Of a DNA stretch of 14,309 nucleotides, positions 1 through 13,862 are shown piece by piece. Under the pieces are notes generated by a model. The model searched no databases. It saw only the letters and a program-made list of their open reading frames with translations, and was not told where the DNA came from. Origin of the DNA: Deltaproteobacteria bacterium RIFOXYA12_FULL_61_11 (lineage in GTDB: Bacteria > Bdellovibrionota_F > JAHFAK01 > YA12-FULL-61-11); NCBI GenBank assembly GCA_001799195.1, contig MGSU01000075.1, positions 1 through 14,309 of the forward strand, given 5' to 3'. Both the position numbers and the translations under genes were made by a program. Each line of letters starts with the position of its first letter. Position 1 is the first letter of the stretch.

Positions 1-1085
1 ATCCCCCGAAGAAGGTCCTGGTCACCGACCTCGACGGAACCCTGTGGGGTGGAGTGATCGGTGATGACGGGGTGGCCGGGATCGAACTCGGCACCGTTTC
101 TCCCCGTGGCCATGCCTATCAAACTCTTCAGCGGTATCTCCAAGAGTTGCGCGGCCGCGGGATCCTCCTGGCCGTGTGCAGCAAGAATGAAGAAGGGGTC
201 GCGCGGGAACCTTTCGAACGGCACCCGGAAACCGTGTTGCGGCTCGAGGATTTCGTGGCTTTCAAGGCCAACTGGGCGCCGAAACCGGACAACCTGCGCC
301 ACATCGCTGCGGAACTGAACCTGGGACTGGATAGTGTCGTCTTCCTCGACGACAACCCGGCCGAAATTGAGCTGGTGCGTAGGGAAATACCCGAGGTGGT
401 CGCCTTGCAGCTCGAAGATCCCGCCCTCGCAGTGCGTATGCTGGCCGAGGCCCGGTTGTTCGAACCGCGCCGCCTGACCGATGAAGATTTCCAGCGCACC
501 GAGATGTATCGCCAGGAACGCCAACGTCAGGCCTGCGCCGGGCAGTGCACCGATCTTGCCGGTTTCCTCCAATCCCTCGGTATGACCGCTCGCTACGAGC
601 CCTTCACCGCCCTCAACCTCGGCCGTATCGCCCAACTGGTGCAGCGCAGCAACCAGTTCAACCTGACCACGAAACGGCGAGACGAGGCTCAGCTCCGCAC
701 CCTCATGGCAGACCAGGCCTTTCTCTGCCGGACCCTCTCCCTGGCCGACCGCTTCGGCGACTACGGACTCATCTGCGTCCTCATCGCCAAAGTACGAGCC
801 GCCGACAGCGCCCTCTTCCTCGACACCTGGCTGATGAGCTGTCGGGTGCTGAGCCGGCAGGTGGAAGAACTCGCCCTCAACTTGTTGGTCGAGGAAGCCC
901 GCAACCGGAGCTTGACCACCCTCCAGGGTCTGTTCCTGCCGACCCGGAGGAACGACCTCGTCCGGGAGCACTACGACCGCCTCGGCTTTTTGGTACTCGA
1001 AGCGAGCGCCGAAGTGCGCCGGTACCGGCTCGAAATCGAAAGCTTCTGCCCTCGACCAACCCCTATCACCGTGGTGAGGTATTGA
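1..1085 (+). CDS. FkbH-like HAD-superfamily protein (glyceryl-ACP loading type), 5' end cut off by the window
   Basis: FkbH proteins take a phosphoglyceryl group from 1,3-bisphosphoglycerate, dephosphorylate it and load the glyceryl unit onto a carrier protein. The reading frame is open from base 3, so the true start lies left of the window. The HAD nucleophile motif DLDGTLWGGVIGDDG is at the edge (bases 27-71). The conserved Cys of the family motif (AVCSKNEEG, Cys codon 177-179) follows, then WAPKPDNLRHIAAELNLGLD and the acidic HAD motif VFLDDNPAE. The C-terminal part (QRSNQFNLTTKRR, FGDYGLICV, WLMSCRVLSRQVE) is the acetyltransferase-like domain typical of FkbH. Here the motif reads DLDG where DLDN is more usual in the family. 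An ACP gene starts 2 bases after the stop, the standard FkbH partner arrangement. Family assignment is very secure; the exact acyl substrate is inferred. Confidence 0.93.
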   Translation, partial: PPKKVLVTDLDGTLWGGVIGDDGVAGIELGTVSPRGHAYQTLQRYLQELRGRGILLAVCSKNEEGVAREPFERHPETVLRLEDFVAFKANWAPKPDNLRHIAAELNLGLDSVVFLDDNPAEIELVRREIPEVVALQLEDPALAVRMLAEARLFEPRRLTDEDFQRTEMYRQERQRQACAGQCTDLAGFLQSLGMTARYEPFTALNLGRIAQLVQRSNQFNLTTKRRDEAQLRTLMADQAFLCRTLSLADRFGDYGLICVLIAKVRAADSALFLDTWLMSCRVLSRQVEELALNLLVEEARNRSLTTLQGLFLPTRRNDLVREHYDRLGFLVLEASAEVRRYRLEIESFCPRPTPITVVRY

Positions 1086-1087
1086 CG

Positions 1088-1336
1088 ATGAGTGATGATC
1101 GACACGTCTACGAACGTTTACAGAGCGTGTTCGACCGCGTCTTCCTGGACGAAGTCAAGGTTTCCCCTCAGCTTTCTGCCAAAGATGTGGATGAATGGGA
1201 CTCCCTGCTGCACGTCACGCTCATCCTGCTGGTAGAGAAGGAGTTCGGCATCCGTTTCGCCACCGGGGAAGTCGAGGCCACCGAGAACGTAGGGGAACTC
1301 GTGACCCTTGTCCTGCGGCACCTCGAGGGTGGTTGA
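1088..1336 (+). CDS. Acyl carrier protein (82 aa)
   Basis: This small acidic carrier protein has the phosphopantetheine attachment motif VDEWDSLLHV, with Ser39 as the predicted attachment site. Helix II/III features (LVEKEFGIRF, ENVGELVTLV) match phosphopantetheine-binding proteins of the DltC/FkbJ kind, and the length is normal for the family. The ATG lies 2 bases after the FkbH stop and is preceded by GAGGT inside the FkbH 3' end, so the two are almost certainly co-translated. A longer open frame extends upstream but only overprints fkbH. It probably receives the glyceryl (or derived) unit from FkbH. Its converging neighbour is an MBOAT acyltransferase, which suggests the loaded ACP donates its acyl group to a membrane acyltransferase rather than to a polyketide synthase. 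That last step is inference. Confidence 0.93.
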   Translation: MSDDRHVYERLQSVFDRVFLDEVKVSPQLSAKDVDEWDSLLHVTLILLVEKEFGIRFATGEVEATENVGELVTLVLRHLEGG

Positions 1337-1367: not shown

Positions 1368-2597
1368 TCATACACCCCGGAACTGGCGCCACAACAGTTC
1401 GAGCTGTGCCGGTTCGTTGGCGAACAAGATCACGCTGAGGGAGATATAGAGGAAGGTCAGCAGCCAGGCGCACAGAGCGATGGACCTGTTGTTCAGGTAG
1501 CGCCGGTACCCGCTCAACCCCAACCAGCGCTTGAGCAACAACGACCAGGAGTAGACCACGATGACGCCAAGGCCATGCATCGCTCCGAAGAGGAGGAAGT
1601 TCCAACTCTGGCCGTGCCAGACACCAATGACCAGGAAGGACAAGAGGATGGAGGACACCGTCGCCGCGTGTAGGTGGTCGGTTCCCCAGCGACGGACCAG
1701 CCATTTGGTCAGCGGCGTGAAAACCATACTGCCGACGTATCGCCCCAGGGTGATGTGCCAAGTGCCCCAGAATACCTGTAAATTCCGCGACGCCAGAGGA
1801 TTGCGAAAATTATCGTCGATTTCGATACCGATCAGACGTGCCGCGCCGATACAGAACTCACAGAAACCCGAGAAACTGAAATAGACATAAAGGTAGAAGC
1901 CGACACCGCTGACCAGGAGCTCCGGGAGTCCGTGTTGATTGTGATCCCAAAAATACCCGGAGAAGCTCAGTTGATCGCAGACCGTGGCCAGGACGAGATA
2001 TTTCACGGCACCCACGAGGAGCTGACAGAGGGCGGGGATGGCTTCGGGCCAATGCCCATGTGAGTCGTCCATCGATTGGACAAAACGCGGGTAAGCTGAA
2101 ATCGGCCCTACCAGCAGCGTCGGCAGGAAGAAAGCGAAGGATAGGTAGGTGGCTGGATCGGGGGGCGGAAGGTTCCTGGCCCTGAGTTCGACCGGCAGGA
2201 TGCTCAGTCGGAACGCCATGAAGGACAACCCTACCATGGACCAGGTAGCAAGGTCCTCTCGATTGGCCCCAGCCTGCACCAAGAACTCTTGGGTCCAGCC
2301 AGCACCGACCTTACTCCACACTAGCACCAGGAGAGGGAACAGCATGGCCGCGAGGTAGAGAAGTCGATGGCGGTACATGAACCGCACGAAGAAGTAGTGG
2401 CCCAGGGTCCATGCACAGTACAGGGCCAACCCGCCCGACCACGTACCCCAATCGAAGAAGTACAGCAGCGCTGACGCGTTGCAGAAGGCGAAGGCTGGGT
2501 TGCGCAGCGCACGTGGCGCCGTGCGTACGATCAGGGCAGCCACGAGGAAATAACTACCGAGCGGAAGCAGCATCGAGAAGTCCAGCACCTGGTTCAT
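1368..2597 (-). CDS. MBOAT-family O-acyltransferase (DltB/AlgI-like, 409 aa)
   Basis: This is a polytopic membrane protein with many hydrophobic segments from about residue 8 to 395. The MBOAT signature is clear: SFSGFCEFCIGAARLIGI (241-258), NPLASRNLQVFWGTWHITLG (266-285, His281), and VIGVWHGQSWNFLLFGAMHG (323-342) with the catalytic-type His328 and a further His341. DltB and AlgI use this histidine to pass an acyl group across the membrane for O-acylation of a surface polymer. The protein is somewhat shorter than typical AlgI proteins. The ATG is 10 bases after the stop of a 42-residue membrane microprotein, with GTGAG as a weak ribosome site. It is the last gene of the minus-strand run and ends 31 bases from the converging ACP gene. 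The acceptor is unknown; the acyl donor is probably the neighbouring ACP. Confidence 0.92.
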   Translation of the reverse strand: MNQVLDFSMLLPLGSYFLVAALIVRTAPRALRNPAFAFCNASALLYFFDWGTWSGGLALYCAWTLGHYFFVRFMYRHRLLYLAAMLFPLLVLVWSKVGAGWTQEFLVQAGANREDLATWSMVGLSFMAFRLSILPVELRARNLPPPDPATYLSFAFFLPTLLVGPISAYPRFVQSMDDSHGHWPEAIPALCQLLVGAVKYLVLATVCDQLSFSGYFWDHNQHGLPELLVSGVGFYLYVYFSFSGFCEFCIGAARLIGIEIDDNFRNPLASRNLQVFWGTWHITLGRYVGSMVFTPLTKWLVRRWGTDHLHAATVSSILLSFLVIGVWHGQSWNFLLFGAMHGLGVIVVYSWSLLLKRWLGLSGYRRYLNNRSIALCAWLLTFLYISLSVILFANEPAQLELLWRQFRGV

Positions 2598-2607
2598 GGC
2601 TGCTCAC

Positions 2608-2736
2608 TCAGAAGCGTCGATAGACAAGGCCAAAATCGAGAGAGCGCTCGGGGATGGTGGAAAATGCATAGAGCGACACCAGGCACAGCACCATTGCACA
2701 CAACCCGAGTATCCAAGCGATTATTCCGGGTTTCAT
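2608..2736 (-). CDS. DltX-like membrane microprotein (42 aa)
   Basis: A single transmembrane helix (about residues 4-26, IIAWILGLCAMVLCLVSLYA) is followed by a short polar tail, TIPERSLDFGLVYRRF, that ends at the stop codon. The terminal LVYRRF resembles the C-terminal FxYxxF motif of DltX, the microprotein of teichoic-acid D-alanylation, whose tyrosine near the end carries the acyl group between the MBOAT DltB and DltD. Tyr39 and the final Phe42 occupy the matching places; the first Phe is Leu. The ATG overlaps the stop of the SGNH gene (ATGA), AGGAG lies 6 bases upstream, and the MBOAT gene follows 10 bases after the stop. Coupling, strong ribosome site, helix and terminal motif together make it a real gene. 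Its proposed acyl-relay role is inference from the motif and position. Confidence 0.82.
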   Translation of the reverse strand: MKPGIIAWILGLCAMVLCLVSLYAFSTIPERSLDFGLVYRRF

Positions 2737-3815
2737 TGTGGTCTCCTGGAGTACCGATCGAAGGCGTGGAGCAGGGCCGTTTGGGTCACGCGGGTGTGGA
2801 GGTAGCCGCCCCCGGTGTTGAAATGGAGAATGTCGCCCGGCAGGTAGAGTTGGTCTATCTGCGCCTCGTTGAAACCGGCAAAGAACCGCGCTGGGGCAAC
2901 GGCGAGCAGGGGAACTCCATCCCGCTCGAGCCAGGACTGGGCCCGATGGGGCAAGCGTATGACTTCCTCTGCAGCAGCATGGCGGAAGGGAATCCTCACC
3001 AGGATCAGGCGTGTCTGACTGGCAGCGACCAGTTCGACGATGCGTTCCATGAAGTGGGCTTGGTAGTCGGGGAGCTCAAGATCGAAACGCAGGTGCTCGT
3101 CTTGCCGACCATGGTGCAATAGTTCGTCGAGTTCGCAGGGATGCTCGCGCAACCGAGCCTGCAATTCCTCGGGCACAGCCTCATCCGGCAGCCAGTCGCT
3201 GCCGCGGGTTTTGGCGAAGGTAGCTTCGACGATCGGTACATCCCGGGTCAGCAGGGCGGCGAGATATTGCCGCGGAGCGACAAGCACGGTGAGCGCGAAT
3301 AAGGGAATGACGGTATCTCGGGGTAGTCCGGCGAAGGCTGACCAGTGTTCGTGCGCTTGGAGTATGCGGTGCAGGCTGGGATTGATCGGGATGTGCGGGT
3401 TGGGATCCACGTCGTACAGGACCAAACCGACCCTGCGGTGGGCCAGGAGATCGCGCAGCAGGATGTAATGGAGGTCTGTACCGTAGAAGACCGAGGGCAG
3501 GTGGACCACGGTCGCGGTTCGTCCCAGGTGAGCACTCAGGGCTTCTTGGATTCGGCGGGCATGAAAACCGGCGGCCACGTGGGACGATCCCAGGATGGCA
3601 ACATCCACGGGTTTGGTCTCGGTGAAGAGCTGCTGGTACACATAACCGCTCAGATTCTCACGTCGATCTGCCCCCCGGTAGACCTGCTCGCGCGAGGGGA
3701 AGCCGGTGATACCCGGAGCCAGGGTCAGTACGAGCAAGCCGACGAGCGCAAGCGAGGCGTACAAGAGGGACTGTTGCGGCCGGAACAGGGGGCCTCGAGA
3801 GCTGGTGTTGAACAT
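2733..3815 (-). CDS. Membrane-anchored SGNH/DltD-like hydrolase or acyltransferase (360 aa)
   Basis: One N-terminal membrane segment (about 17-37, LLYASLALVGLLVLTLAPG) places the rest outside the cytoplasmic membrane. VAILGSSHVAAGF (72-84) is SGNH block I, with Ser78 as predicted nucleophile. LPGDILHFNTGGG (325-337) near the C-terminus supplies the DxxH pair Asp328/His331. This pattern is shared by DltD and the AlgX/AlgJ-like proteins that work with MBOATs on surface polymers. The ATG at 3815 is chosen. An upstream TTG at 3851 would add 12 residues and overlap the glycosyltransferase gene, and neither start has a strong ribosome site. It follows the glycosyltransferase after 14 bases and overlaps the microprotein gene by 4. 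It could transfer the acyl group to the polymer or remove it; the triad alone does not decide. Confidence 0.8.
   Translation of the reverse strand: MFNTSSRGPLFRPQQSLLYASLALVGLLVLTLAPGITGFPSREQVYRGADRRENLSGYVYQQLFTETKPVDVAILGSSHVAAGFHARRIQEALSAHLGRTATVVHLPSVFYGTDLHYILLRDLLAHRRVGLVLYDVDPNPHIPINPSLHRILQAHEHWSAFAGLPRDTVIPLFALTVLVAPRQYLAALLTRDVPIVEATFAKTRGSDWLPDEAVPEELQARLREHPCELDELLHHGRQDEHLRFDLELPDYQAHFMERIVELVAASQTRLILVRIPFRHAAAEEVIRLPHRAQSWLERDGVPLLAVAPARFFAGFNEAQIDQLYLPGDILHFNTGGGYLHTRVTQTALLHAFDRYSRRPQ
2743..2747 (-). promoter_or_regulatory. Ribosome binding site of the microprotein gene
   Basis: AGGAG on the minus strand, 6 bases before the ATG at 2736, inside the 3' end of the SGNH gene. 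It supports translation of the 42-residue ORF, and the ATGA overlap (2733-2736) suggests coupling to the upstream gene. Confidence 0.75.
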
Positions 3816-3829
3816 GGGGTGCTCGTACG

Positions 3830-4498
3830 TCAGAGGAGATAGCGGAGCCAACTATAGACATAGCGCCAGGAATGTCGGCGCAGCGAGATCTTGGAGTGAC
3901 CGTATAGCCGGCGGTACTCGTGCGTAGGCACCTCCAGAAGGCGATAGCCGGCGCGGAGGGTCTTGATGATCAACTCTTGTTCTATGGTGGTCAGGTCTTC
4001 GCGCAGGTCCAGGGTCAGCGCGACCTCGCGCAGGATGGCGCGAAAACCGTTTTGGCTGTCGGTGAGCGCGGCACCGAAGCGCAGGTTGATGCCGCAGGTG
4101 ATAATATCGCTGCCGATGTTGCGCAGGAACTTCGATACATCCCCGTGCAGTTCGTCCGAGCCGCCCATGATGCGCGAGCCTTGTACGTGTTCGGCTCTGC
4201 CCTCGACGATGGGCATGACCAGCCGGGGAATGTCGTCTGGGTCATGCGAACCCTCGGCATCGATGAAGACCAGCACCTCGCCCGTGGCCAGTGCGATACC
4301 TTGGCGCAGCGCCGCTCCCTTGCCCTTTCCCGCGTCCAGATGCACCTCGGCTCCGCAGCGGCGAGCTACCTCGGCGGTGCCATCCCGAGAATGGCCGTCG
4401 ATCACTAAGAGCTCGTCGGCATGGCCCCGGCACCCCTCGATGACGTCCGCGATGGTCTTGGCTTCCTCTTTGGCCGGAATGATGACCGATACTTTCAT
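3830..4498 (-). CDS. Family 2 glycosyltransferase, DPM1 / polyprenyl-phosphate sugar synthase type (222 aa)
   Basis: This is a GT-A fold enzyme with N-terminal VSVIIPAKEEAKTI (3-16), LLVIDGHSRDGTAE (30-43), GKGKGAALRQG (57-67) and the metal-binding FIDAEGSHDPDD (78-89), the variant seen in dolichyl- and undecaprenyl-phosphate hexose synthases. DSQNGFRAI (147-155) and YGHSKISL (199-206) are further DPM1-type marks. It ends without the transmembrane helices of GtrB-like enzymes. The ATG at 4498 has AAGGA 5 bases upstream; the longer open frame back to 4594 would overlap the lipoprotein gene and add residues foreign to the family. It sits 7 bases after the lipoprotein stop. It probably makes a lipid-linked sugar donor at the inner membrane face for the glycan served by the acylation genes; the sugar is unknown. 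Confidence 0.88.
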   Translation of the reverse strand: MKVSVIIPAKEEAKTIADVIEGCRGHADELLVIDGHSRDGTAEVARRCGAEVHLDAGKGKGAALRQGIALATGEVLVFIDAEGSHDPDDIPRLVMPIVEGRAEHVQGSRIMGGSDELHGDVSKFLRNIGSDIITCGINLRFGAALTDSQNGFRAILREVALTLDLREDLTTIEQELIIKTLRAGYRLLEVPTHEYRRLYGHSKISLRRHSWRYVYSWLRYLL

Positions 4499-4505
4499 GG
4501 TTCCT

Positions 4506-5915
4506 TCAGAACTCGGCCTCGCTCCGGTCGGTACTGCCGTCTCGAACGAAGAGGGGATCCCCGTCGAGGATGGCGCGGCGGGCATTGCGGGCATCTTCGG
4601 ACTTGAAGAGAGCGCAGTCTTTGTCCTCTGTCCCCCCTGCCTTCCAGCACTGCACGGCGCTACCGCCCTTCTTCAGGAAACCGCCGCGGGTGTCGGCCGA
4701 GCGATCGAGGAAGACGAGGTAGTTCTTGTCGTCCCTCGCGTTGTGGAAGAGGAAGAGGCTCAGGTCGGCGGAGCGGCGGTGGACCAGATAGCTCCCCTTG
4801 GACTTGCCTCTCTCGAGCACGAGCTTGGTCATGAGGTGCGAGCCATCGCCGTGGAGGTAGGAGATGGTCATCAAGGGCTCGCGGCGGTCGGGTACGGTGA
4901 AATCGAAGAGGCGCCAGATGCCCTGTCGACCATCGGCCGAGGTAATGCCGTTGACCAGCACAAAGTCCTCGAGGTCGAGGCGTGGTCCCGCGCCGCTCAC
5001 CAGGAGCGACCAGAGCAAGCCCTTGCCGTCGGCCTGATCCAGCTCGACCTCAGGAGAAAAGGCCTCGAGGTTGTCCCCTGGCGCGGAGAACGATGGCAAC
5101 TCCATGTCTTTACAGGCCTGCGCGATCAAGCGCACCGTTGGCAGGGTAACGTTGCGACCCTGTTCGTCGAAGTCGTCCTTGAAGCTGAGAGGCCGCTCCG
5201 GCTGGTTGAACCAGACCACGGCCGAATTGTAGAGGTACGTGGCCTTGATCGTTTTCCCCGTCACTCCCTTGTCGAGCAGCTCGAACATCTTGCGTGGGAA
5301 GAAGACGAGCGAGAGGAGTACCGTGTCCACGGTCTTGATGACCGCCTTGGCCTGTTCAAACGGTCCGACCAAGTCTCCCAGCCGTCCAGTGAGGTCGTCG
5401 GGGTCGTCAAGGGTGTCGCGCAACCCGCCCAGGTCGGGCAGGTCGAAGTCGGCCAGGGTGTCGAGCAGGTAGAAGGAGTTGAAGCCGGACACGTCGGCGC
5501 CGAACGCGGCCGAGGGGGGGATGTCCGGCAACGCAGCATTGCTGGAGAAGCTCGTCGGCAGAGCGGCAGCGGGCAAGGCCGCCGCAGGGAGCGCCTCGGC
5601 TGCGACGGCATCAGTTCCACCGCTGTCCCCTTCAATGACCAAAGCCGCGGGCAGGGCTGCGGCAGGAAGGGCTGATGCCGGCAAGGCCGCAGCAGGCAAT
5701 GCTGAGGTCGGCACTAATCCCGATGAAGAGGAGAAAGCGTCCGGGTTCTTCATCTCTTCGGGAACGGCCTCGGCCGCGGGGTCCTCGACCTCGTCGGGAG
5801 GCGTAGTTTCTTCGCTCTCGTCCTCTCCACCGAGAAAACCGCACGAGAGGAAGACGAGACCTGTGAGCACCAGGCAGAGCAAGGGCAGGACGAGAAGCGT
5901 GCGGGCAGACGACAT
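4506..5915 (-). CDS. Predicted lipoprotein with ALPAA pentapeptide repeats, unknown function (469 aa)
   Basis: I do not recognise a domain family. The N-terminus is a lipoprotein signal (SSARTLLVLPLLCLVLTG, then LVFLSC with Cys25 as the lipidated residue). It is followed by an acidic linker (GGEDESEETTPPDEVEDP) and two low-complexity blocks of ALPA[A/S] pentapeptides at about residues 72-91 and 108-122. The rest, about 140-469, looks like a folded soluble domain with many acidic and hydrophobic residues (for example SGFNSFYLLDTLADFDLP, FPRKMFELLDKG, LMTISYLHGDGSH) and a Cys pair near the C-terminus (VQCWKAGGTEDKDC). The ATG at 5915 is chosen because GGAGG lies 5 bases upstream; a GTG at 5927 would add 4 residues. 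It sits between the thiolase and glycosyltransferase genes with gaps of 22 and 7 bases. It may be an envelope partner of the glycan acylation genes, but only position suggests this. Confidence 0.78.
   Translation of the reverse strand: MSSARTLLVLPLLCLVLTGLVFLSCGFLGGEDESEETTPPDEVEDPAAEAVPEEMKNPDAFSSSSGLVPTSALPAAALPASALPAAALPAALVIEGDSGGTDAVAAEALPAAALPAAALPTSFSSNAALPDIPPSAAFGADVSGFNSFYLLDTLADFDLPDLGGLRDTLDDPDDLTGRLGDLVGPFEQAKAVIKTVDTVLLSLVFFPRKMFELLDKGVTGKTIKATYLYNSAVVWFNQPERPLSFKDDFDEQGRNVTLPTVRLIAQACKDMELPSFSAPGDNLEAFSPEVELDQADGKGLLWSLLVSGAGPRLDLEDFVLVNGITSADGRQGIWRLFDFTVPDRREPLMTISYLHGDGSHLMTKLVLERGKSKGSYLVHRRSADLSLFLFHNARDDKNYLVFLDRSADTRGGFLKKGGSAVQCWKAGGTEDKDCALFKSEDARNARRAILDGDPLFVRDGSTDRSEAEF
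5550..5594 (-). repeat. Second ALPAA-coding repeat block in the lipoprotein gene
   Basis: Three consecutive 15-base units encode ALPAA, ALPAA, ALPTS (lipoprotein residues 108-122). The units share sequence but differ at wobble positions, so the peptide repeat seems older than a recent slippage event, or is kept by selection. Confidence 0.8.
5643..5702 (-). repeat. First ALPAA-coding repeat block in the lipoprotein gene
   Basis: Four consecutive 15-base units encode ALPAA, ALPAS, ALPAA, ALPAA (lipoprotein residues 72-91). The block lies just after the lipidated N-terminus and probably forms a flexible or extended spacer between the membrane anchor and the folded domain. Confidence 0.82.
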
Positions 5916-5937
5916 GGGAACCTCCACGAACGAGTGG

Positions 5938-7185
5938 TTACACGGCCCGGGTGAAGATCATGGCGACCACGGTCACATCGTTGCCGCCCATGCTGATCAT
6001 CAGGCCATAGGGCCTGGCAGGATCGAGGGAGAGCTGGCACGGGCCGGCGTTGCCGGTGAGCTGGTCGAGGAGGTCCACTGCCTGGCGTACCCCGGTACCG
6101 CCGGTATAATGGCCGTAACCGATCAGACCTCCCGTGGCGTTGGCCGGCACCTTTCCATCCCGGCGTGTGTGCCCGTCGAGTACATACTGCGGGGCAGTGC
6201 CGGGAGGGGTGAGGCCGATGGCTTCGAGGGCCAACATGGCGCTGATGGTGAAGCAATCGTGCACCTCGACGAACCCGAGGTCCTCGAGACTGAGCCCGGC
6301 CATTTCCAGGGCCCTTTGCACGGCCGCGGCCGTGGTGTCGAGCACGGTGAGGTCCTCGGGAGGCCGGGTGATGTCCCTCGCCGCCTGACCGAAACCGATG
6401 AGGCGGGCACAGCGATCCCTGTGAAGACCTGCCTTTTGCACCCCTTCTTCGCTCAGGAACAAGAGCGAGGAGGCTCCGTCCGAGACCTTGGAGCAATCGA
6501 AATAATTGAGGTGCTCGACGAAGCTCTTCGGATTGGGCGCGGCCATGGCCGCGGCCTCGGGATCCTCTAGCGTGTTGTGGTGTTCTTGGGCCTTGGGACA
6601 GAGCCTGGCGTTCTCGACCATCTGAGCGTACCAGCGGGCCATGCCCTTGCGCGCCGTCTCTCCCCCGTAACGCTGGAAATAGGCTCCGGCGCGGTCGGAG
6701 AACTTCGAGGGGAAGAAGTAGGCATGGCCGGCCTTGCGCTCGCCGCGGTAGTACCCCGCCGCGGCCAGGTAATCGGCGCCATACACGGCCTTGACCGTGT
6801 TCTGGATCTCGAAGCCGAGGCAGAGGGAGATATCGGAGAGGTCCGAGAGGACGGTCTTCATGGCCGTGGCCAAGGCCAGACCGCCGGAACAGCAGGCGCC
6901 CTCGACCCTGGTCGCCGGTTTATGCCGCAAGCCCTCATGCAGCATGCCAACGAAACCGGGCAAGTTGCCTTGGCGCAGGAAGCGGCCGGCCATGAAGTTG
7001 CCAACCACGGCCTCGTCCACCAGGGAGGGATCGGGCAGGGCCGTGAGCGTGGACCGGCCTGCCTCGACCACATATTCCTCGAAGGTGCGCATGGGTTTCT
7101 TGGGGTTGAACTCCTTGCGGCCGGAGCCGAAGGAGACGGTATTGTACCCGGCGGCGATATAGACGTTCTTGCGTAACTGCTTCAT
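5938..7185 (-). CDS. Thiolase-family acyl-CoA acyltransferase, SCP2-thiolase-like (415 aa)
   Basis: Thiolases cleave 3-ketoacyl-CoA with CoA (or run the reverse condensation). The nucleophile region RVEGACCSGGLAL places the catalytic Cys at about 98 (CCSG in the place of CASG). FDCSKVSDGASSLLF (229-243), the VEVHDCFTI motif (307-314, typical of the SCP-x/SCP2 branch) and GGLIGYGHYTGGTG (352-365) with His359 follow. The second catalytic Cys of classical thiolases (CxG) is replaced by SMG (398-400), as expected for the SCP2-type branch. Length is normal for the family. The ATG has GGAG 8 bases upstream and lies 16 bases after the dehydrogenase stop. It probably completes the last step of the neighbouring acyl-CoA oxidation module; chain and branch specificity cannot be read from the sequence. 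Confidence 0.88.
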   Translation of the reverse strand: MKQLRKNVYIAAGYNTVSFGSGRKEFNPKKPMRTFEEYVVEAGRSTLTALPDPSLVDEAVVGNFMAGRFLRQGNLPGFVGMLHEGLRHKPATRVEGACCSGGLALATAMKTVLSDLSDISLCLGFEIQNTVKAVYGADYLAAAGYYRGERKAGHAYFFPSKFSDRAGAYFQRYGGETARKGMARWYAQMVENARLCPKAQEHHNTLEDPEAAAMAAPNPKSFVEHLNYFDCSKVSDGASSLLFLSEEGVQKAGLHRDRCARLIGFGQAARDITRPPEDLTVLDTTAAAVQRALEMAGLSLEDLGFVEVHDCFTISAMLALEAIGLTPPGTAPQYVLDGHTRRDGKVPANATGGLIGYGHYTGGTGVRQAVDLLDQLTGNAGPCQLSLDPARPYGLMISMGGNDVTVVAMIFTRAV

Positions 7186-7201
7186 CGAGTTGCTCCTTTG
7201 C

Positions 7202-8536
7202 TCAAGCGAAGTCGGCGACGCCGTACAGATGGAAGAAGCCGAGCTTGAGCACGGCGCTGACGTCGTCCACGGTGGGGGTCACCCCGAGCTGCACCAGGGT
7301 CTCCGCGATGACCTTGGAGTTCTTCAGGTAGTCCCGGGCCAAGCTCGCGCCGAGGGTGTCCAGGGCTTCGAGCTTGCCGAAATAGGCTGCCAATCGCTCG
7401 CCTGCATGGCCGTCCCGAGAGAGGGCCTTCCAGGTCAGCGCACTCGAGGGTAGGGGGCCAAGCAGACCGTCGACCTTCCCGAGGAGCGCTTCGTCGATGG
7501 TCCGGTAGGTTCCGGACTCGAGGTCGTAGACCCTTGCTGGACGACCCTTCTCGTAACCGAGGAAACCGTCCTTCTGGCTGCCATCCTGGTGTTGGCCGCC
7601 TCGGATCCCGGCCGCGAGCATGCGGTCGCACAACGGCGAACGCAGGTGCGGTTGCTCGCCGTGCTCTGCGATGATGGCCAGGATGGACTGATAGACCTCG
7701 ATGCCGACGTAGTCGAGGAGTTGGAAGATGCCCATGGGCCGCAACAGGAAATCTTGGGTCACGCGGTTCACGGCCACGACGGCCTCGGGCAGCGTGAGTC
7801 CACGGTCGGCCACGAGACGTTCGGCGAGGTTGAGCCCATACAGACCGTCTCGGGTGAAGTGCCCGTTGCCGATGAAACCGGCCACGTCGGCCGAGCGGAC
7901 CACGGTCTTGCGCAAATGGGCGGCCAGTTCGACGGCCAAGCCGACAAGCTCCTTGCGGGTTGTCTCGGGCACGATGAGTTCCAAGAGCTTCTGCACGATC
8001 GGTGGGTTGTAGAAATGATAACCGATGACGCGGCCGACCAGGTCGGTGCGCTGTGAGATCAGGCCGATGGGGATAGACGAGGTATTGGTAAAGAAGTAGG
8101 TCTCTTTGGCACAACTCTCCGCCAACTGCTTGAAGACCTTCAGCTTCACCTCGAGATTTTCGACGATCGCCTCGAAGACCATGGTCGCGGGCGCGACCAC
8201 GCGCAGGTCGGTGTCCACGCGCACGAGAGAGAGGAGATCGGCGATGTACTGCTCGATGATCTCGCCGTTGTCCACGAGGTCGGCGCGGTCGGAATAGAAA
8301 CCCCGCAAGGTGACGATCTGTTTCTCGGCCGCCCGGCGGGCCTGATCGGCGAGGTAGGCCAGCAGGCCGGGAAAGGCGGCCTCGTTGGTGTCGATCAACG
8401 TGAGACGCAGATGCTCGAGCCGGTACTGCAACTTCAGGCGGACCAATTCTTGGGAGAGCAACGCGGCGATGCCGCTGCCCATCTTCCCGGCCGCTCCGAG
8501 CACGGCCACGCGCTGCATGAGTTGTTGGTATTCCAT
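7202..8536 (-). CDS. 3-hydroxyacyl-CoA dehydrogenase, long form (444 aa)
   Basis: This NAD-dependent enzyme oxidises a 3-hydroxyacyl-CoA to the 3-keto form. A Rossmann motif VAVLGAAGKMGSGIA (10-24) opens the protein. FEAIVENLEVK (121-131), TNTSSIPIG (150-158), the catalytic-type IGYHFYNPP (171-179, His174) and VAGFIGNGHF (218-227, Asn224) follow in family order. At 444 residues it is longer than single-domain enzymes of about 290. An extra stretch of about a dozen residues separates the dinucleotide helix from LTLID. The C-terminal third (EKGRPARVYDLESGTYRTI onward) resembles the dehydrogenase part of FadN-like proteins without their hydratase domain; this comparison is from memory. The ATG has AGGAGG 6 bases upstream and follows the acyl-CoA dehydrogenase stop after 14 bases. 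Confidence 0.88.
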   Translation of the reverse strand: MEYQQLMQRVAVLGAAGKMGSGIAALLSQELVRLKLQYRLEHLRLTLIDTNEAAFPGLLAYLADQARRAAEKQIVTLRGFYSDRADLVDNGEIIEQYIADLLSLVRVDTDLRVVAPATMVFEAIVENLEVKLKVFKQLAESCAKETYFFTNTSSIPIGLISQRTDLVGRVIGYHFYNPPIVQKLLELIVPETTRKELVGLAVELAAHLRKTVVRSADVAGFIGNGHFTRDGLYGLNLAERLVADRGLTLPEAVVAVNRVTQDFLLRPMGIFQLLDYVGIEVYQSILAIIAEHGEQPHLRSPLCDRMLAAGIRGGQHQDGSQKDGFLGYEKGRPARVYDLESGTYRTIDEALLGKVDGLLGPLPSSALTWKALSRDGHAGERLAAYFGKLEALDTLGASLARDYLKNSKVIAETLVQLGVTPTVDDVSAVLKLGFFHLYGVADFA

Positions 8537-8550
8537 GGTTTCCTCCTCCC

Positions 8551-9699
8551 TTACCCTGCAAGGAGTATTTTGGCGATGGTCAGGAGCTGCATGAACGAGG
8601 TGCCCTCATAGATACTGCCGATCTTGGCATCGCGGTAGAACTTCTCGACCGGGTATTCTTTGGTGAAACCTGCGCCGCCATAGATCTCCACCGCTTTGCT
8701 GGCGACCCGTTCGGCCACCTGACTGGTGAAGAACTTCGCCATGGCCGCTTCTTTGACGAAGGGCAGGCCCGCGTCTTTGAGCCGCGCGGCGTTGTAGGTC
8801 ATGGTCTTAGCCGCCTCGATGTTCACCGCCAATTCGGCGAGGAGCATCTGCATGCCCTGGAAGGTGGCGATGGGCTTGCCGAACTGGGCCCGCTCCTTGG
8901 CATACCCGAGGGCACAGGCGAAGGCTCCCTCGGCCACGCCGACCATCTGGCCGGAGATGCCGATGCGACCCTCGTTGAGGGTCTCGATGGCCACCTTGTA
9001 CCCCTGCCCGACCTCGCCGAGCACGTTCTCGGCCGGGACCTCGCAGTTCTCGAAGAGTAATTCGCAGGTGCTGGAGGCGCGAATGCCGAGCTTGTCCTCC
9101 TTCTTGCCGATCGAGAAGCCGGGAAAATCCTTCTCGACGATGAAGGAGGTGATCCCGCGGTAGCCGGCCTCAGGGTCAGCGTTGGCAAAGACGATGAAAA
9201 TCTCGGCCTCCTTGGCGTTGGTGATCCAGAGTTTGGACCCGCTCAACAGGAAGCGGTCGCCCTTCTTCGTCGCCCTGGTCTTGAGCGCGAAGGCGTCGCT
9301 GCCCGAGGTGCCCTCCGAAAGGGCGTAGGCGCCGAGCTTCTGGGTGCAGAGCTGGGGCAGGTACCGCTCCTGTTGGGCCTCGGTGCCCCAACGCAGGATG
9401 CAGTTATCCACCAGGGTGTTCTGGACATCGACGAGCACGGCCAGGGAGGCGTCGACCTTGGCCAATTCCTCGATCGCCAGCACCGCGGAGAAGAAGGACG
9501 AGCCGGTGCCGCCGAAACGCTCGGGCACCTCGATGCCCATCAGACCGAGGTCGAAGCATTGCTTGATCAACGCTGGATCCATGGCCTGTTGTTCGTCCAT
9601 GGCATGACAGCGCGGGGCCACGTCGTTCTTGGCGAACTTCTCGATGCTCTGGCGCAGGAATTCCTCGTCCTCGGTCAAGTGCGTGATGGGTTCGGTCAT
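8551..9699 (-). CDS. Short/branched-chain acyl-CoA dehydrogenase, ACADSB-like (382 aa)
   Basis: This FAD flavoenzyme introduces a 2,3-double bond into an acyl-CoA and passes electrons to electron-transfer flavoprotein. Family motifs run in order: GLMGIEVPERFGGTG (53-67), IEELAKVDASLAVL, YALSEGTSGSDAFALKTRA for FAD and substrate binding, WITNAKEA, LGIRASSTCELLFENCEVP, NEGRIGISGQMVGVAEG, RAQFGKPIATFQGMQ and KFYRDAKIGSIYEGTS. Glu365 in IYEGTS is the predicted catalytic base. The match to the mammalian 2-methylbutyryl-CoA dehydrogenase ACADSB is striking along the whole length, including FENCEVPAENVLG. This points to isobutyryl-, 2-methylbutyryl- or short straight-chain CoA substrates. The ATG has GGAG about 9 bases upstream. 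It follows the MBL-fold gene after 43 bases, the widest gap in the run. Confidence 0.93.
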   Translation of the reverse strand: MTEPITHLTEDEEFLRQSIEKFAKNDVAPRCHAMDEQQAMDPALIKQCFDLGLMGIEVPERFGGTGSSFFSAVLAIEELAKVDASLAVLVDVQNTLVDNCILRWGTEAQQERYLPQLCTQKLGAYALSEGTSGSDAFALKTRATKKGDRFLLSGSKLWITNAKEAEIFIVFANADPEAGYRGITSFIVEKDFPGFSIGKKEDKLGIRASSTCELLFENCEVPAENVLGEVGQGYKVAIETLNEGRIGISGQMVGVAEGAFACALGYAKERAQFGKPIATFQGMQMLLAELAVNIEAAKTMTYNAARLKDAGLPFVKEAAMAKFFTSQVAERVASKAVEIYGGAGFTKEYPVEKFYRDAKIGSIYEGTSFMQLLTIAKILLAG

Positions 9700-9742
9700 G
9701 GGTCTGTCTCCTCTGCTAGCGTCGCCTCCGTGGCGACGGGGT

Positions 9743-10624
9743 TCACGTTCGGGGATGCCATTCCTTGCCCAGCGCGAGGAGCTCCTCGTCGAGGGCTATG
9801 GCGAAATCGTCGTTCTCGCGCACGATCCTGGTCAGCGGCGTGACCGGGTCGTGTTCGAAACAGCACAGCCAGCCCTCGTCCGCGGCCCTGCCCAAGAGCC
9901 CTGCTTTTTCCTCCAACAGGCGCTGGGCCCACAGGTCGTAGCCCATGGTATAGGCAAGGCGGACATGGCTGGTGGTGGGTACGAGGTCCGAAGGGTAGCA
10001 CAGGGTGCGTTCGGCCGAATGCACGATCGGCACGAGCTGCCCGGGGGTGTGTCCATCGCACAGCTCGACCCGGAGCCCCGGCAGGAGCTCTCCCTCGTTC
10101 TTGACCAGGTGTACCTCCACGGCTTGGATCAGGGCCTCGAGTTCGGCACGGAGATAGCTGGCCCGATCGCGCACGGTCGGCTCGAGGGCATGGTGGAGCT
10201 GCTCCGAACCGATGAAATGCACGGCCGAGGGGAAGGTCGGACGGATCGTACCCTCGCGGTCGAGGCGGAAGAAACCGGCGACGTGATCGAAGTGGAGATG
10301 GGTGCACAGGACATGGGTGACCTGCTCGGCGGCGACACCGTGTCTGCCCAGTTCGGCGAGGACCTGCTGGTGCGAGGCCTCCACGGCGTAGAGTTCCCTC
10401 TGCTTGGCGGGCATGCTGTCGCCGACACCCGCGTCGACCACAATGATCTTGCCTTCTCCGCGCAGGAGCAACCCGCGCAGGGCCAGGGCGATGCGGTTGC
10501 GCTCGTCGGGGGGGTTGGTCCGCTGCCACAACGGGCGTGGCACCACGCCGAACATGGCCCCGCCGTCTAATCGTATCCGGCCGAACTCGAGGGGATCGAG
10601 GCAGTAGGGACCTATGGTCAGCAC
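9743..10624 (-). CDS. MBL-fold metallohydrolase (293 aa)
   Basis: The metallo-beta-lactamase fold binds two metal ions and usually hydrolyses ester, thioester or lactone bonds. Metal ligands are complete: CTHLHFDHVAG (107-117; His109, His111, Asp113, His114), DGHTPGQ (190-196, His192), YPSDLVP (210-216, Asp213) and a late His in CFEHDP. IIVVDAGVGDS (60-70) is the usual strand before the metal loop. The start is GTG at 10624, with AGGAGGAG 5 bases upstream; icmF stops 16 bases before it. Specificity cannot be read from motifs. Its place inside an acyl-CoA gene set suggests a thioesterase or lactonase job, for example release of a hydroxyacyl group from CoA, but that is inference from context. 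Confidence 0.87.
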   Translation of the reverse strand: MLTIGPYCLDPLEFGRIRLDGGAMFGVVPRPLWQRTNPPDERNRIALALRGLLLRGEGKIIVVDAGVGDSMPAKQRELYAVEASHQQVLAELGRHGVAAEQVTHVLCTHLHFDHVAGFFRLDREGTIRPTFPSAVHFIGSEQLHHALEPTVRDRASYLRAELEALIQAVEVHLVKNEGELLPGLRVELCDGHTPGQLVPIVHSAERTLCYPSDLVPTTSHVRLAYTMGYDLWAQRLLEEKAGLLGRAADEGWLCCFEHDPVTPLTRIVRENDDFAIALDEELLALGKEWHPRT

Positions 10625-10640
10625 GCCAACTCCTCCTCGC

Positions 10641-13600
10641 TCACATGGCCCGGCGGTATTCGCCGCCGATCTCGTACAGGAGCCGGGTGATCTGCCCCAG
10701 GCTCGCCACCTGCACCGTGTGCATCAACTCTTCGAAGACGTTGGCTCCGGACAACACGGTAGCGCGCAGCCGCTCGAGGGCCGCAGGGCAGGTCTGCGCG
10801 TTGCGCCGTTGAAATGCCTCGAGGGCCTCGATCTGGCCCTGCTTCTCCTCAGTACTGGCCCGGGTCAGTGCAACCCCGCGGGCTTCACCGGCGTTCGGTT
10901 CGAGGAAGGTATTCACCCCGATCAGAGGCAGCTCGCCGGAGTGCTTGAGTTGCTCGTACTGCAACGATTCGTCCTGGATGAGCCCCCGGTGGAACTGGGT
11001 CTCCATGGCCCGGAGGGTGCCCCCGCGGTTGCTGAGCTGGACGAAGAGGTCGAGCACTGCCTCCTCGACCAGGTCGGTGAGCCGCTCGTAAAAGTACGAA
11101 CCCTGGAGGTTGTTCTCGTTCTTGAGCTGACCGAATTCGCGGGTCAGGATGAGTTGGATGGCCATGGCGTTGCGCACCGAACGCTCGGTCGGAGTGGTGA
11201 TGGCCTCGTTGTAGGCGTTGGTGTGCAGGGAGTTGCAATTGTCCGCCAGGGCGGTCAGGGCCTGCAAGGTGGTGCGGATGTCGTTGAACTGGATCTCCTG
11301 GGCGTGCAGGGAACGACCCGAGGTCTGGATGTGGTACTTGAGCTTTTGGCTGCGCTCGCTCGCACCGTACCGATCGCGCATGGTGACGGCCCAGATCCGC
11401 CGCGCGACCCGGCCCATCACCGAATACTCGGGGTCCATGCCCGTGCTGAAGAAGAAGGACAGGTTGGGCGCGAAGTCGTCGATGGCCATGCCGCGGTTGA
11501 GGTAGTACTCGACCAGGGTGAAGCCATTGCTGAGGGTGAAGGCGAGCTGGGTGATGGGGTTGGCCCCGGCCTCGGCGATGTGATAGCCGGAGATGCTGAC
11601 CGTGTAGTAGTTGCGCACCCCATGCCCAATCGCGAACTCCTGCATGTCGCCCATCAGGCGCAGGGCGAAGTCGGTGGAAAAGATACAGGTGTTCTGGGCC
11701 TGGTCTTCCTTGAGGATATCTGCTTGAACCGTGCCGCGGACCACGGCTAGGGTTGCTGCCCGGATACGCTCGGCCTCCTCCTCGGTCGGTCGGCGGCCGC
11801 TCTGCTCGGAAGAGAAGCGCTCGAGTTGTTGGGCGACCGCGGTGTTGAAGTACATGGCCAGCATGATCGGCGCTGGACCGTTGATGGTCATAGAAACCGA
11901 ACAGTTGGGATCAGTGAGATCGAACCCGGCGTAGAGTTTCTCCATATCGTCAAGCGTCGCCACGCTGACCCCGCTCTCGCCGATCTTCCCGAAGATGTCG
12001 GGCCGCACGGCCGGGTCCTCGCCGTAGAGGGTCACGCTATCGAAGGCCGTGGAGAGGCGTTTAGCCTGCTCGCCTTTACAGAGATAGTGGAACCTGCGGT
12101 TGGTGCGCTCGGGCGGTCCTTCTCCCGCGAACTGGCGTTTGGGTTCCTCGTCTGTGCGTTTGAAGGGGAAGACCCCCGCGGTGAAGGGGAAGGTGCCGGG
12201 CAGGTTCTCGAGCAGGAGGTAGCGCACCAGCTCTCGAGGTGAGGGTTTCTTCGGTAGCGCCACTTTGGGGATACCGAGCCCGGAAAGGCTCCGGCTGCAC
12301 AGAGCGTGCGTAAAGGTTTTTCCGCGCACCTCGTAGCTCACCTCGGACTTCGCGTACACCTCGGCCTGGCGCTGCCACGTCGCGAGCGCGTCGATACAAT
12401 CATCGGAGAGGCTTTTCTCAAGGGAGGTGCAGCGTTGCGAGGCCGTTTCGGGGTCGAGACCGGCTTCGCCGAACTCCTGCAACCTGCGGTAAGCGCTGAG
12501 GGTTTCGTAGGTCGCGGCGTCTTGTTCGACCCGTTGCTTGTACCCGCGCACGGTCTCGGCTAGGTCGGCCAGATAGGCCTGACGTTCTTGTGGGATGATG
12601 CTGCCGACGCGGCCCGAATCGAAGGCCCTCTCGGTGCGATAGGACCGCCTCGGAACCAGCTCCAGTCTGTGGTTTTTATGCAGCAAGGAGAGTAGATGCA
12701 GGTAGGCCACGTTCACGCCCTGGTCATCGAAGCGGTTGGCCGCCGTACCGAAAACCGGCAGATCTTCGTCGATAACCCCGCTGAACAAATTGAAATTGCG
12801 GCGATACTGCTTGCGAACCGCCTGTAGGGCGTCCTCGGCGCGCTTCTGCTCGAATTTATTGATGAGGATCATGCTGGCGTAGTCGAGCATGTTGATCTTC
12901 TCGAGCTGCGTGTCGGCCCCGTACTCGCTGGTCATCACGTAGAGCGACAGCGGCGTGACCTCGGTGATACTGGTCTCGAGCTGCCCGATACCAGCGGTTT
13001 CCAGGAAACAGAGGTCGAAACCGCAGGCCGAGAAGGTAGCGATGCCGCGGCGCAAGACCGCAGCGAGGTCCTCGCCGGGACCGAGCGCCACGCTGCGCAG
13101 GAAGACCGTGCTGTGATCGATGGCGTTCATACGGATCCTGTCGCCGAGCAGGGCGCCCCCGGTGCGGCGCTTGACCGGATCGACGGCCAGGAGCCCAAGG
13201 CGCAGCCCTGGGAAATCATCCACGAAGCGGCGCACGAACTCGTCGAGCAAGGAGCTCTTACCCGCCCCGCCGGAGCCGGTCACGCCGACGACCGGCATGG
13301 TCGCGTTGCGCTTCTGGGAGAATGGCGCCAGGAGGTCGTCTAGCCCGGCTCCTTTTAAGGCGAGGGCAGCGGAGAGCAGGGCAGAGGCCTGCACGGTCGG
13401 GTCCTGACTGTCGCGCGGCAAGCGGCCGTTCCGGCTCTTCGTCCGTGCGATCATGTCATCGATCATACCGGAGAGCCCCAGCCGTTGGCCGTCTGCCGGC
13501 GAGTAGATCTTTTCGACCCCCGCGGCTTCGAGGGCGTCGATCTCCTCGGGCACGATGACCCCGCCACCGCCGCCGAAAACGGCAATGTGTCCGCAGCCCC

Positions 13601-13862
13601 GCCGCGCCAGCAGTTCCAATATATAGGTATAAAACTCAACGTGACCTCCCTGGTACGAGCTGACCGCGATAGCTTGCGCGTCTTCTTCGATGGCAGCATC
13701 GACGATCTGCTGGCAGGAACGGTTGTGCCCGAGGTGGACAACCTCTGCGCCGCGTTGCACTAACAGGCGGCGGATGACGTTGATCGAGGCGTCATGGCCG
13801 TCGAAGAGCGAGGTCGCGGTAAGGAACCTCATCGGAGGGGCCGGGGAAGGCGGTTGCTGCAT
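10641..13862 (-). CDS. icmF: Fused isobutyryl-CoA mutase IcmF (adenosylcobalamin-dependent, 1073 aa)
   Basis: The fusion protein interconverts isobutyryl-CoA and butyryl-CoA with coenzyme B12 and carries its own G-protein chaperone. Domains in order: B12-binding (about 11-145) with DGHDASINV (21-29, His23 as lower cobalt ligand), SSYQGGH and FGGGGGVIVPEE; a MeaB-like GTPase (about 188-400) with P-loop GSGGAGKS (196-203), LLAVDPVKRRTGGA, LETAGIGQ and base-recognition NKFE (335-338); and a mutase barrel (about 545-1073). In the barrel, GVF (Phe565) and DQAQNTCIF (Gln723) stand where methylmalonyl-CoA mutase has Tyr89 and Arg207, which argues for isobutyryl- rather than methylmalonyl-CoA. SISGYHIAEAGA holds active-site His761. 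Length and order match IcmF. The ATG at 13862 has GAGGTGGG just upstream. It is the first gene of the minus-strand run. Confidence 0.96.
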   Translation of the reverse strand: MQQPPSPAPPMRFLTATSLFDGHDASINVIRRLLVQRGAEVVHLGHNRSCQQIVDAAIEEDAQAIAVSSYQGGHVEFYTYILELLARRGCGHIAVFGGGGGVIVPEEIDALEAAGVEKIYSPADGQRLGLSGMIDDMIARTKSRNGRLPRDSQDPTVQASALLSAALALKGAGLDDLLAPFSQKRNATMPVVGVTGSGGAGKSSLLDEFVRRFVDDFPGLRLGLLAVDPVKRRTGGALLGDRIRMNAIDHSTVFLRSVALGPGEDLAAVLRRGIATFSACGFDLCFLETAGIGQLETSITEVTPLSLYVMTSEYGADTQLEKINMLDYASMILINKFEQKRAEDALQAVRKQYRRNFNLFSGVIDEDLPVFGTAANRFDDQGVNVAYLHLLSLLHKNHRLELVPRRSYRTERAFDSGRVGSIIPQERQAYLADLAETVRGYKQRVEQDAATYETLSAYRRLQEFGEAGLDPETASQRCTSLEKSLSDDCIDALATWQRQAEVYAKSEVSYEVRGKTFTHALCSRSLSGLGIPKVALPKKPSPRELVRYLLLENLPGTFPFTAGVFPFKRTDEEPKRQFAGEGPPERTNRRFHYLCKGEQAKRLSTAFDSVTLYGEDPAVRPDIFGKIGESGVSVATLDDMEKLYAGFDLTDPNCSVSMTINGPAPIMLAMYFNTAVAQQLERFSSEQSGRRPTEEEAERIRAATLAVVRGTVQADILKEDQAQNTCIFSTDFALRLMGDMQEFAIGHGVRNYYTVSISGYHIAEAGANPITQLAFTLSNGFTLVEYYLNRGMAIDDFAPNLSFFFSTGMDPEYSVMGRVARRIWAVTMRDRYGASERSQKLKYHIQTSGRSLHAQEIQFNDIRTTLQALTALADNCNSLHTNAYNEAITTPTERSVRNAMAIQLILTREFGQLKNENNLQGSYFYERLTDLVEEAVLDLFVQLSNRGGTLRAMETQFHRGLIQDESLQYEQLKHSGELPLIGVNTFLEPNAGEARGVALTRASTEEKQGQIEALEAFQRRNAQTCPAALERLRATVLSGANVFEELMHTVQVASLGQITRLLYEIGGEYRRAM

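Follow-up and report, generated by a model that had tools for sequence, protein, structure and literature searches.

What is encoded by the short open reading frame between the SGNH and MBOAT genes of this DNA, and how might its product work with the two enzymes? The window, that is the whole stretch of 14,309 nucleotides that was analysed, carries this frame at 2608..2736 on the minus strand. Its 42 codons, read from 2736 to 2608, specify a microprotein, MKPGIIAWILGLCAMVLCLVSLYAFSTIPERSLDFGLVYRRF, with a single hydrophobic helix and the C-terminus LVYRRF, in which Tyr39 occupies position -4 and Phe42 is the terminal residue. The microprotein ATG and the TGA of the SGNH gene share the letters ATGA, a probable ribosome-binding site, AGGAG (2743..2747, minus strand; sequence TCCAGGAGACCACA-ATG), lies 6 nt 5' of the ATG, and the ATG of the MBOAT gene is located 10 nt past the microprotein stop codon. 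In Gram-positive bacteria, DltX moves a chemical group across the membrane, attached to the last tyrosine of the protein. A first-pass annotation had placed the frame between the two genes, with correct coordinates and the strand omitted, and had described the ATGA overlap, the AGGAG site, one membrane helix and the LVYRRF terminus, all of which were confirmed in the DNA and its translation. The DltX-like spacing of the tyrosine and the terminal phenylalanine that it had pointed out was also borne out, although the motif reads LVYRRF and thus has a leucine at position -6, which is phenylalanine in most DltX and PatA tails. No family was matched in a Pfam search of the microprotein, and its GC3 is 0.60 compared with 0.72-0.75 in the neighbouring genes. 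A microprotein of this type is easily overlooked by gene finders.

The next gene (1368..2597, minus strand; Pfam MBOAT, 1.7e-20) encodes a DltB-like protein of 409 residues that scores 74 bits against PF03062 and has no fused C-terminal FxYxxF motif; its length is some 70 residues below the median for MBOATs with such a motif (409 vs. 477 aa). Plasmid-record rows were excluded from the structure alignment, and the AF2 model, with 28 sequences in the alignment, had a pLDDT of 88. Its best PDB match was DltB (8jem, TM 0.80), and DltB proteins were also the best matches in a sequence search of the PDB. Across the aligned MBOAT homologs His328, the histidine of the WHG motif, is invariant and His281 is nearly so. 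The MBOAT fold together with the invariant catalytic histidine identifies the protein as an MBOAT acyltransferase.

The SGNH gene is located at 2733..3851 on the minus strand, with an uncertain start at TTG 3851 or ATG 3815. Numbered from the ATG, the protein has GSS at 76-78 and DxxH at 328-331, and the GxS and DxxH motifs are invariant when it is aligned with DltD and other SGNH partners. No significant sequence match was obtained in Pfam, NCBIfam or the PDB. The AF2 model is weak to moderate (pLDDT 61); Foldseek returned DltD (7dxm) as its top match at E 1.1e-3 with a low TM, while VIA-align gave Z values of 11-12.7 against SGNH hydrolases including PatB. An SGNH fold, modelled at this pLDDT, with GxS and DxxH places the protein among the SGNH transferases. 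Upstream, at 3830..4594 (minus strand; Pfam Glycos_transf_2, 2.8e-22), is a gene for a family 2 glycosyltransferase resembling polyprenyl-phosphate glycosyltransferases, which the AglJ and PpgS-like models match below cut-off and which possibly acts in a glycan pathway. A 473-aa putative secreted protein with a lipoprotein-like start, ALPAAALPASALPAAALP repeats and no family match is encoded at 4506-5927 (minus strand). The region 5938-13862 (minus strand) encodes a thiolase-like protein, a 3-hydroxyacyl-CoA dehydrogenase, an acyl-CoA dehydrogenase and a fused isobutyryl-CoA mutase, IcmF (1588 bits). This acyl-CoA catabolism block is probably unrelated to the microprotein finding.

The same genome contains a second set. 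On contig C33 the genes for an SGNH protein, a microprotein and an MBOAT are arranged in the window order, and the microprotein, MPDSTANSLLRWILFLLFAAAVGLFFLIPGHSLELQLVYKAF, ends in LVYKAF. The MBOAT and SGNH proteins of the two sets are 38% and 39% identical, respectively. An ACP gene is found ~1.5 kb downstream of the C33 set on the other strand. The surrounding frames were read as an initiating glycosyltransferase, a chain-length protein, a polymerase-like protein and glycosyltransferases, and this reading, made from the ORFs and not from a profile search, would make the surroundings an exopolysaccharide-type cluster.

Plasmid records and a varied set of ~390 genomes supplied the MBOAT loci, which comprised 88 distinct MBOATs. 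A fused C-terminal motif, for example FIYFQF, was present in 72 of them, and in none of these 72 did a neighbouring ORF encode a one-helix protein with the motif at its end. The 16 without a fused motif comprised five dltB products and 11 non-Dlt proteins. At the five dltB loci DltX either had its gene at another place in the operon or was not detected; an adjacent motif microprotein accompanied eight of the 11 non-Dlt proteins. The exclusion of the microprotein by the fused motif gave a Fisher p of 2e-8 in a calculation that counted the Dlt genes and one chance hit; this value overstates the evidence because shared ancestry is ignored. No microprotein was found near the non-fused MBOATs of loci L085 and L123. 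At locus L106 a shuttle microprotein ending in SFVYAMF is encoded at 9373-9495 (minus strand), on the strand opposite the non-fused MBOAT and ~575 bp away from it, so such genes can escape operon-based searches.

Four more split loci, with the motif on a separate protein, were found in the phylum of genomes G181, G036 and G315. Split non-Dlt loci occur in the window's phylum, the phylum of G181, the phyla of G119 and G205, and Chloroflexota, where the case is Leptolinea sp. HRD-7 (hrd7_34310, annotated as a hypothetical protein); at least four phylum-level groups are represented besides the window's. For the window's phylum the search covered two genomes, and the other genome gave no match. 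A peptide-pattern scan of the genome collection returned just four distant fused MBOATs, from Acidobacteriota.

The first-pass annotation had suggested that small ORFs beside homologous MBOAT genes be aligned at their C-termini, and that absence of the ORF or loss of the tyrosine and phenylalanine would speak against its proposal. Neither occurred among the homologous loci. When the window microprotein was aligned with 11 other non-Dlt microproteins, the tyrosine at -4 was invariant (12/12) and the terminal phenylalanine was present in 11, the twelfth having leucine; the shuttle tyrosine and the terminal phenylalanine are the only residues conserved across phyla. Furthermore, the tight terminus [FL][IV]YxxF is placed more selectively than chance would give: the fetched loci contain 6876 distinct small ORFs (30-80 aa), and only 8 of these end in it. 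All eight have a membrane helix, and seven lie in loci whose MBOAT has no fused motif.

Several candidates were discarded. The eighth tight-motif ORF, at L084, probably encodes the C-terminal end of a truncated MBOAT, at a contig end, and the survey hit at L090 is an orphan dltB next to a chance 38-aa frame. L090 and L091 are plasmids of Ligilactobacillus murinus and Enterococcus faecalis, both with an orphan dltB and no annotated dltA, dltC or dltD nearby; one of these dltB genes adjoins a bactofencin-like bacteriocin gene. Microproteins of the G036 type, encoded after the MBOAT, were also considered as frameshifted MBOAT tails, and this reading was rejected because their own ATG overlaps the stop codon and the arrangement recurs in several genomes. 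No case of a microprotein and an MBOAT in one reading frame was seen among the loci checked.

In the family of G205, the SGNH-microprotein-MBOAT order of the window is kept in five genera. The microprotein in this family has a pS of 0.61 and a pN of 0.13 over 38 codons, with an invariant tail, LLFSGDLSASKFIYVDF, and by this measure is under strong purifying selection. More distant relatives of G205 have no microprotein adjoining the MBOAT; in two distant relatives it is found at least ~1.5 kb downstream, ending in FIYVDF, in a rearranged locus. The microprotein gene of this group relocates, yet persists.

In the Dlt and PatAB pathways the MBOAT acylates the tyrosine of a C-terminal hexapeptide, from which the SGNH enzyme takes the group, and in PatA the tyrosine of the C-terminal motif is the acyl carrier (PMC12148441). 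The window microprotein probably serves its MBOAT-SGNH pair as DltX serves DltB and DltD, a shuttle role to which we assign a probability of roughly 0.78. A cytoplasmic carrier thioester would supply the MBOAT with an acyl group, which the enzyme would lead through the tunnel at His328 and attach to Tyr39 of the hexapeptide at the outer face. The acylated tail would then swing to the SGNH enzyme, whose serine would accept the group, and the enzyme would move it onto a surface glycan. That this acceptor is an exopolysaccharide or an O-antigen-like glycan is less certain. Acylation of Tyr39, an outward-facing tail and the transfer steps are proposed by analogy, with the chemistry taken from Dlt and PatAB. 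The annotation had proposed an acyl relay of the DltX kind, serving a different polymer and a different acyl group. The relay is supported by the conservation of the tyrosine and phenylalanine and by the motif exclusion, while the other acyl group is something that we infer. The observation is confirmed, its interpretation is supported by independent comparative evidence, and, as far as sequences can tell, a shuttle mechanism is likely.

The acyl group itself may be indicated by two genes on the plus strand. The first (3..1085), cut by the contig start with loss of its N-terminus, encodes an FkbH domain protein, a probable glyceryl-ACP synthase. It scores 301.8 bits against TIGR01686, above the cut-off of 146.65, keeps the DLDGTLWGG (DxDxTLW) and CSKN motifs of this family, and is present in a single copy in the genome bin. 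The second (1088..1336) encodes an acyl carrier protein with an EWDSL phosphopantetheine site, matched by NCBIfam ACP models below their cut-offs. The pair, unmentioned in the first-pass annotation, converges on the MBOAT gene and ends 31 nt beyond its stop codon. The window ACP shares 60% identity with its counterpart by the paralogous MBOAT on C33. After that paralog its closest matches, among the handful of sequences compared, are the ACPs of FkbH-MBOAT loci in G025, Rhodobacteraceae SC52, Tistrella and S. meliloti pSymB, at 34-43% identity. A BLAST comparison with DltC, within the same handful of ACPs, gave no match, and a PKS-linked FkbH ACP was matched at E 0.002. FkbH-ACP-MBOAT sets with a fused motif are found in G025 (L099, LIYGGF), SC52 (FIYFNF), Tistrella mobilis (FIYAGF) and S. 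meliloti pSymB (FLYQGF); a search of the G025 phylum yielded no further FkbH-MBOAT loci. Additionally, fused-motif MBOATs at loci L100, L101, L095 and L128 adjoin an ACP and some of them also an adenylating enzyme, and carrier-fed MBOAT systems other than Dlt seem to be common.

The acyl donor is probably the adjacent ACP, loaded by FkbH, and we tentatively propose, at a little below even odds, that the group is glyceryl, formed on this ACP by FkbH. This donor we can only infer, because modular polyketide synthases are also encoded in the genome bin, on contigs C16 and C103. It is a serious, if somewhat doubtful, possibility that the shuttle is real and uses another ACP-borne acyl group or an acyl-CoA, with FkbH serving the polyketide synthases. 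The FkbH and ACP genes are on the opposite strand from the MBOAT gene, and FkbH is cut at the contig end. However, the only FkbH gene sits with an ACP adjoining the MBOAT, and a similar ACP is found near the second SGNH-microprotein-MBOAT set. The synthases on C16 and C103 could use FkbH products, and the acyl-CoA catabolism block of the window also speaks for this alternative, but the window ACP is much nearer to the MBOAT-linked ACPs than to the PKS-linked FkbH ACP. The other split systems showed no FkbH next to them; FkbH-ACP-MBOAT sets nevertheless recur in other genomes.

It is unlikely that the microprotein instead serves the MBOAT-SGNH complex as a scaffold or regulatory subunit, its tyrosine unacylated and its motif only docking in the MBOAT funnel. 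A scaffold might also take the form of a small protein with one helix next to two membrane enzymes, and regulatory roles for DltX and DltD were still under discussion in a DltB paper of 2024 (PMC11035591). However, the only residues conserved across phyla are those of the shuttle, the microprotein is present only where the MBOAT has no motif of its own, and the equivalent tyrosine of PatA carries the acyl group.

Slightly less probable still is an ordinary divergent Dlt system, in which the microprotein would be DltX and D-alanine would be supplied via a DltA encoded elsewhere. DltB is the closest solved relative of the window MBOAT, DltD is the top Foldseek match of the SGNH model, and a distant adenylating enzyme on C316 scores 178 bits with the DltA model. 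However, this score is far below the cut-off, as is the 150.7 bits of the MBOAT with the DltB model (TIGR04091; curated cut-off 375), and no DltA above the family cut-off was detected anywhere in the 87% complete genome. Pfam DltX (PF12459) did not match the window microprotein even at E 10 and recognised 0/6 of the new microproteins, whereas two true DltX proteins, run as controls, scored 7e-16 and 6e-16. A profile-profile comparison with DltX was weak (probability 15%, E 0.0019) and confined to the tail. The microprotein has the one helix and terminal FxYxxF-type motif of DltX, with leucine at -6; it is encoded apart from any dltA or dltC, the ACP matching those of FkbH-MBOAT loci and not DltC. 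Lacking a Pfam DltX match, it is DltX-like in its proposed working and not shown to be DltX.

In the phylogenetic trees the window and C33 MBOATs fall outside the DltB clade (100/100). Most fused MBOATs form one clade (95/95, core-column tree) and the split MBOATs a grade outside it, in a tree whose deep branches are weak. After the paralog, the nearest relatives of the window MBOAT are two G025 MBOATs with a fused LIYGGF or similar motif, a weak placement (66/95), and one of these belongs to an FkbH-ACP-MBOAT-SGNH operon.

A frame open by chance between two genes is scarcely credible, because the short length of 42 codons, the lower GC3 and the want of a database family are outweighed by the C33 paralog, whose tail and gene position are the same, the ATGA coupling and ribosome site, and recurrence in several phyla with purifying selection in one clade, a conservation that argues strongly against it.

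The 2025 PatAB paper describes non-Dlt MBOAT-SGNH pathways as having neither a carrier protein nor a DltX-like microprotein (PMC12148441), and the present loci appear to contradict both statements. No published description of such loci was found in a literature search that covered few subscription papers, and an earlier description is possible. The separate-shuttle form exists outside the large fused-motif MBOAT clade, and these small genes, of which many have probably escaped annotation, make the shuttle available for study as a separate peptide. Furthermore, the loci suggest an export route by which glyceryl groups carried on an ACP can reach glycans. Separate shuttle microproteins may perhaps be a general overlooked class, spread over several phyla and extending beyond D-alanylation, a generalisation offered with some hesitation.

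Compared with DltX, DltB and DltD of the D-alanylation pathway, the window set has the same parts: a one-helix microprotein of ~40-50 aa with a C-terminal hexapeptide, tyrosine at -4 and phenylalanine last, accompanied by an SGNH enzyme, a carrier protein and a DltB-like MBOAT to which no motif is fused. It differs in that the microprotein has no Pfam DltX match, the MBOAT branches outside the DltB clade, no DltA is found and FkbH is present with an ACP that does not resemble DltC, and the microprotein gene is placed between the SGNH and MBOAT genes whereas dltX precedes dltA. With the peptidoglycan O-acetyltransferases PatA/PatB and other fused MBOAT-SGNH pairs it shares an MBOAT with the catalytic histidine, an SGNH transferase and an F-x-Y-x-x-F type of acyl-tyrosine shuttle, but in the PatA type two additional helices at the C-terminus of the MBOAT carry the motif, and in the window a separate protein does. 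The FkbH-ACP-MBOAT sets resemble it in FkbH, in a related ACP with a WDSL site, in the MBOAT and, in G025, in an SGNH-type partner, whereas their shuttle motif is fused to the MBOAT. The window set belongs to the MBOAT-SGNH acyl-shuttle systems, in which the shuttle hexapeptide is either fused or on a partner, and here it is on the microprotein.
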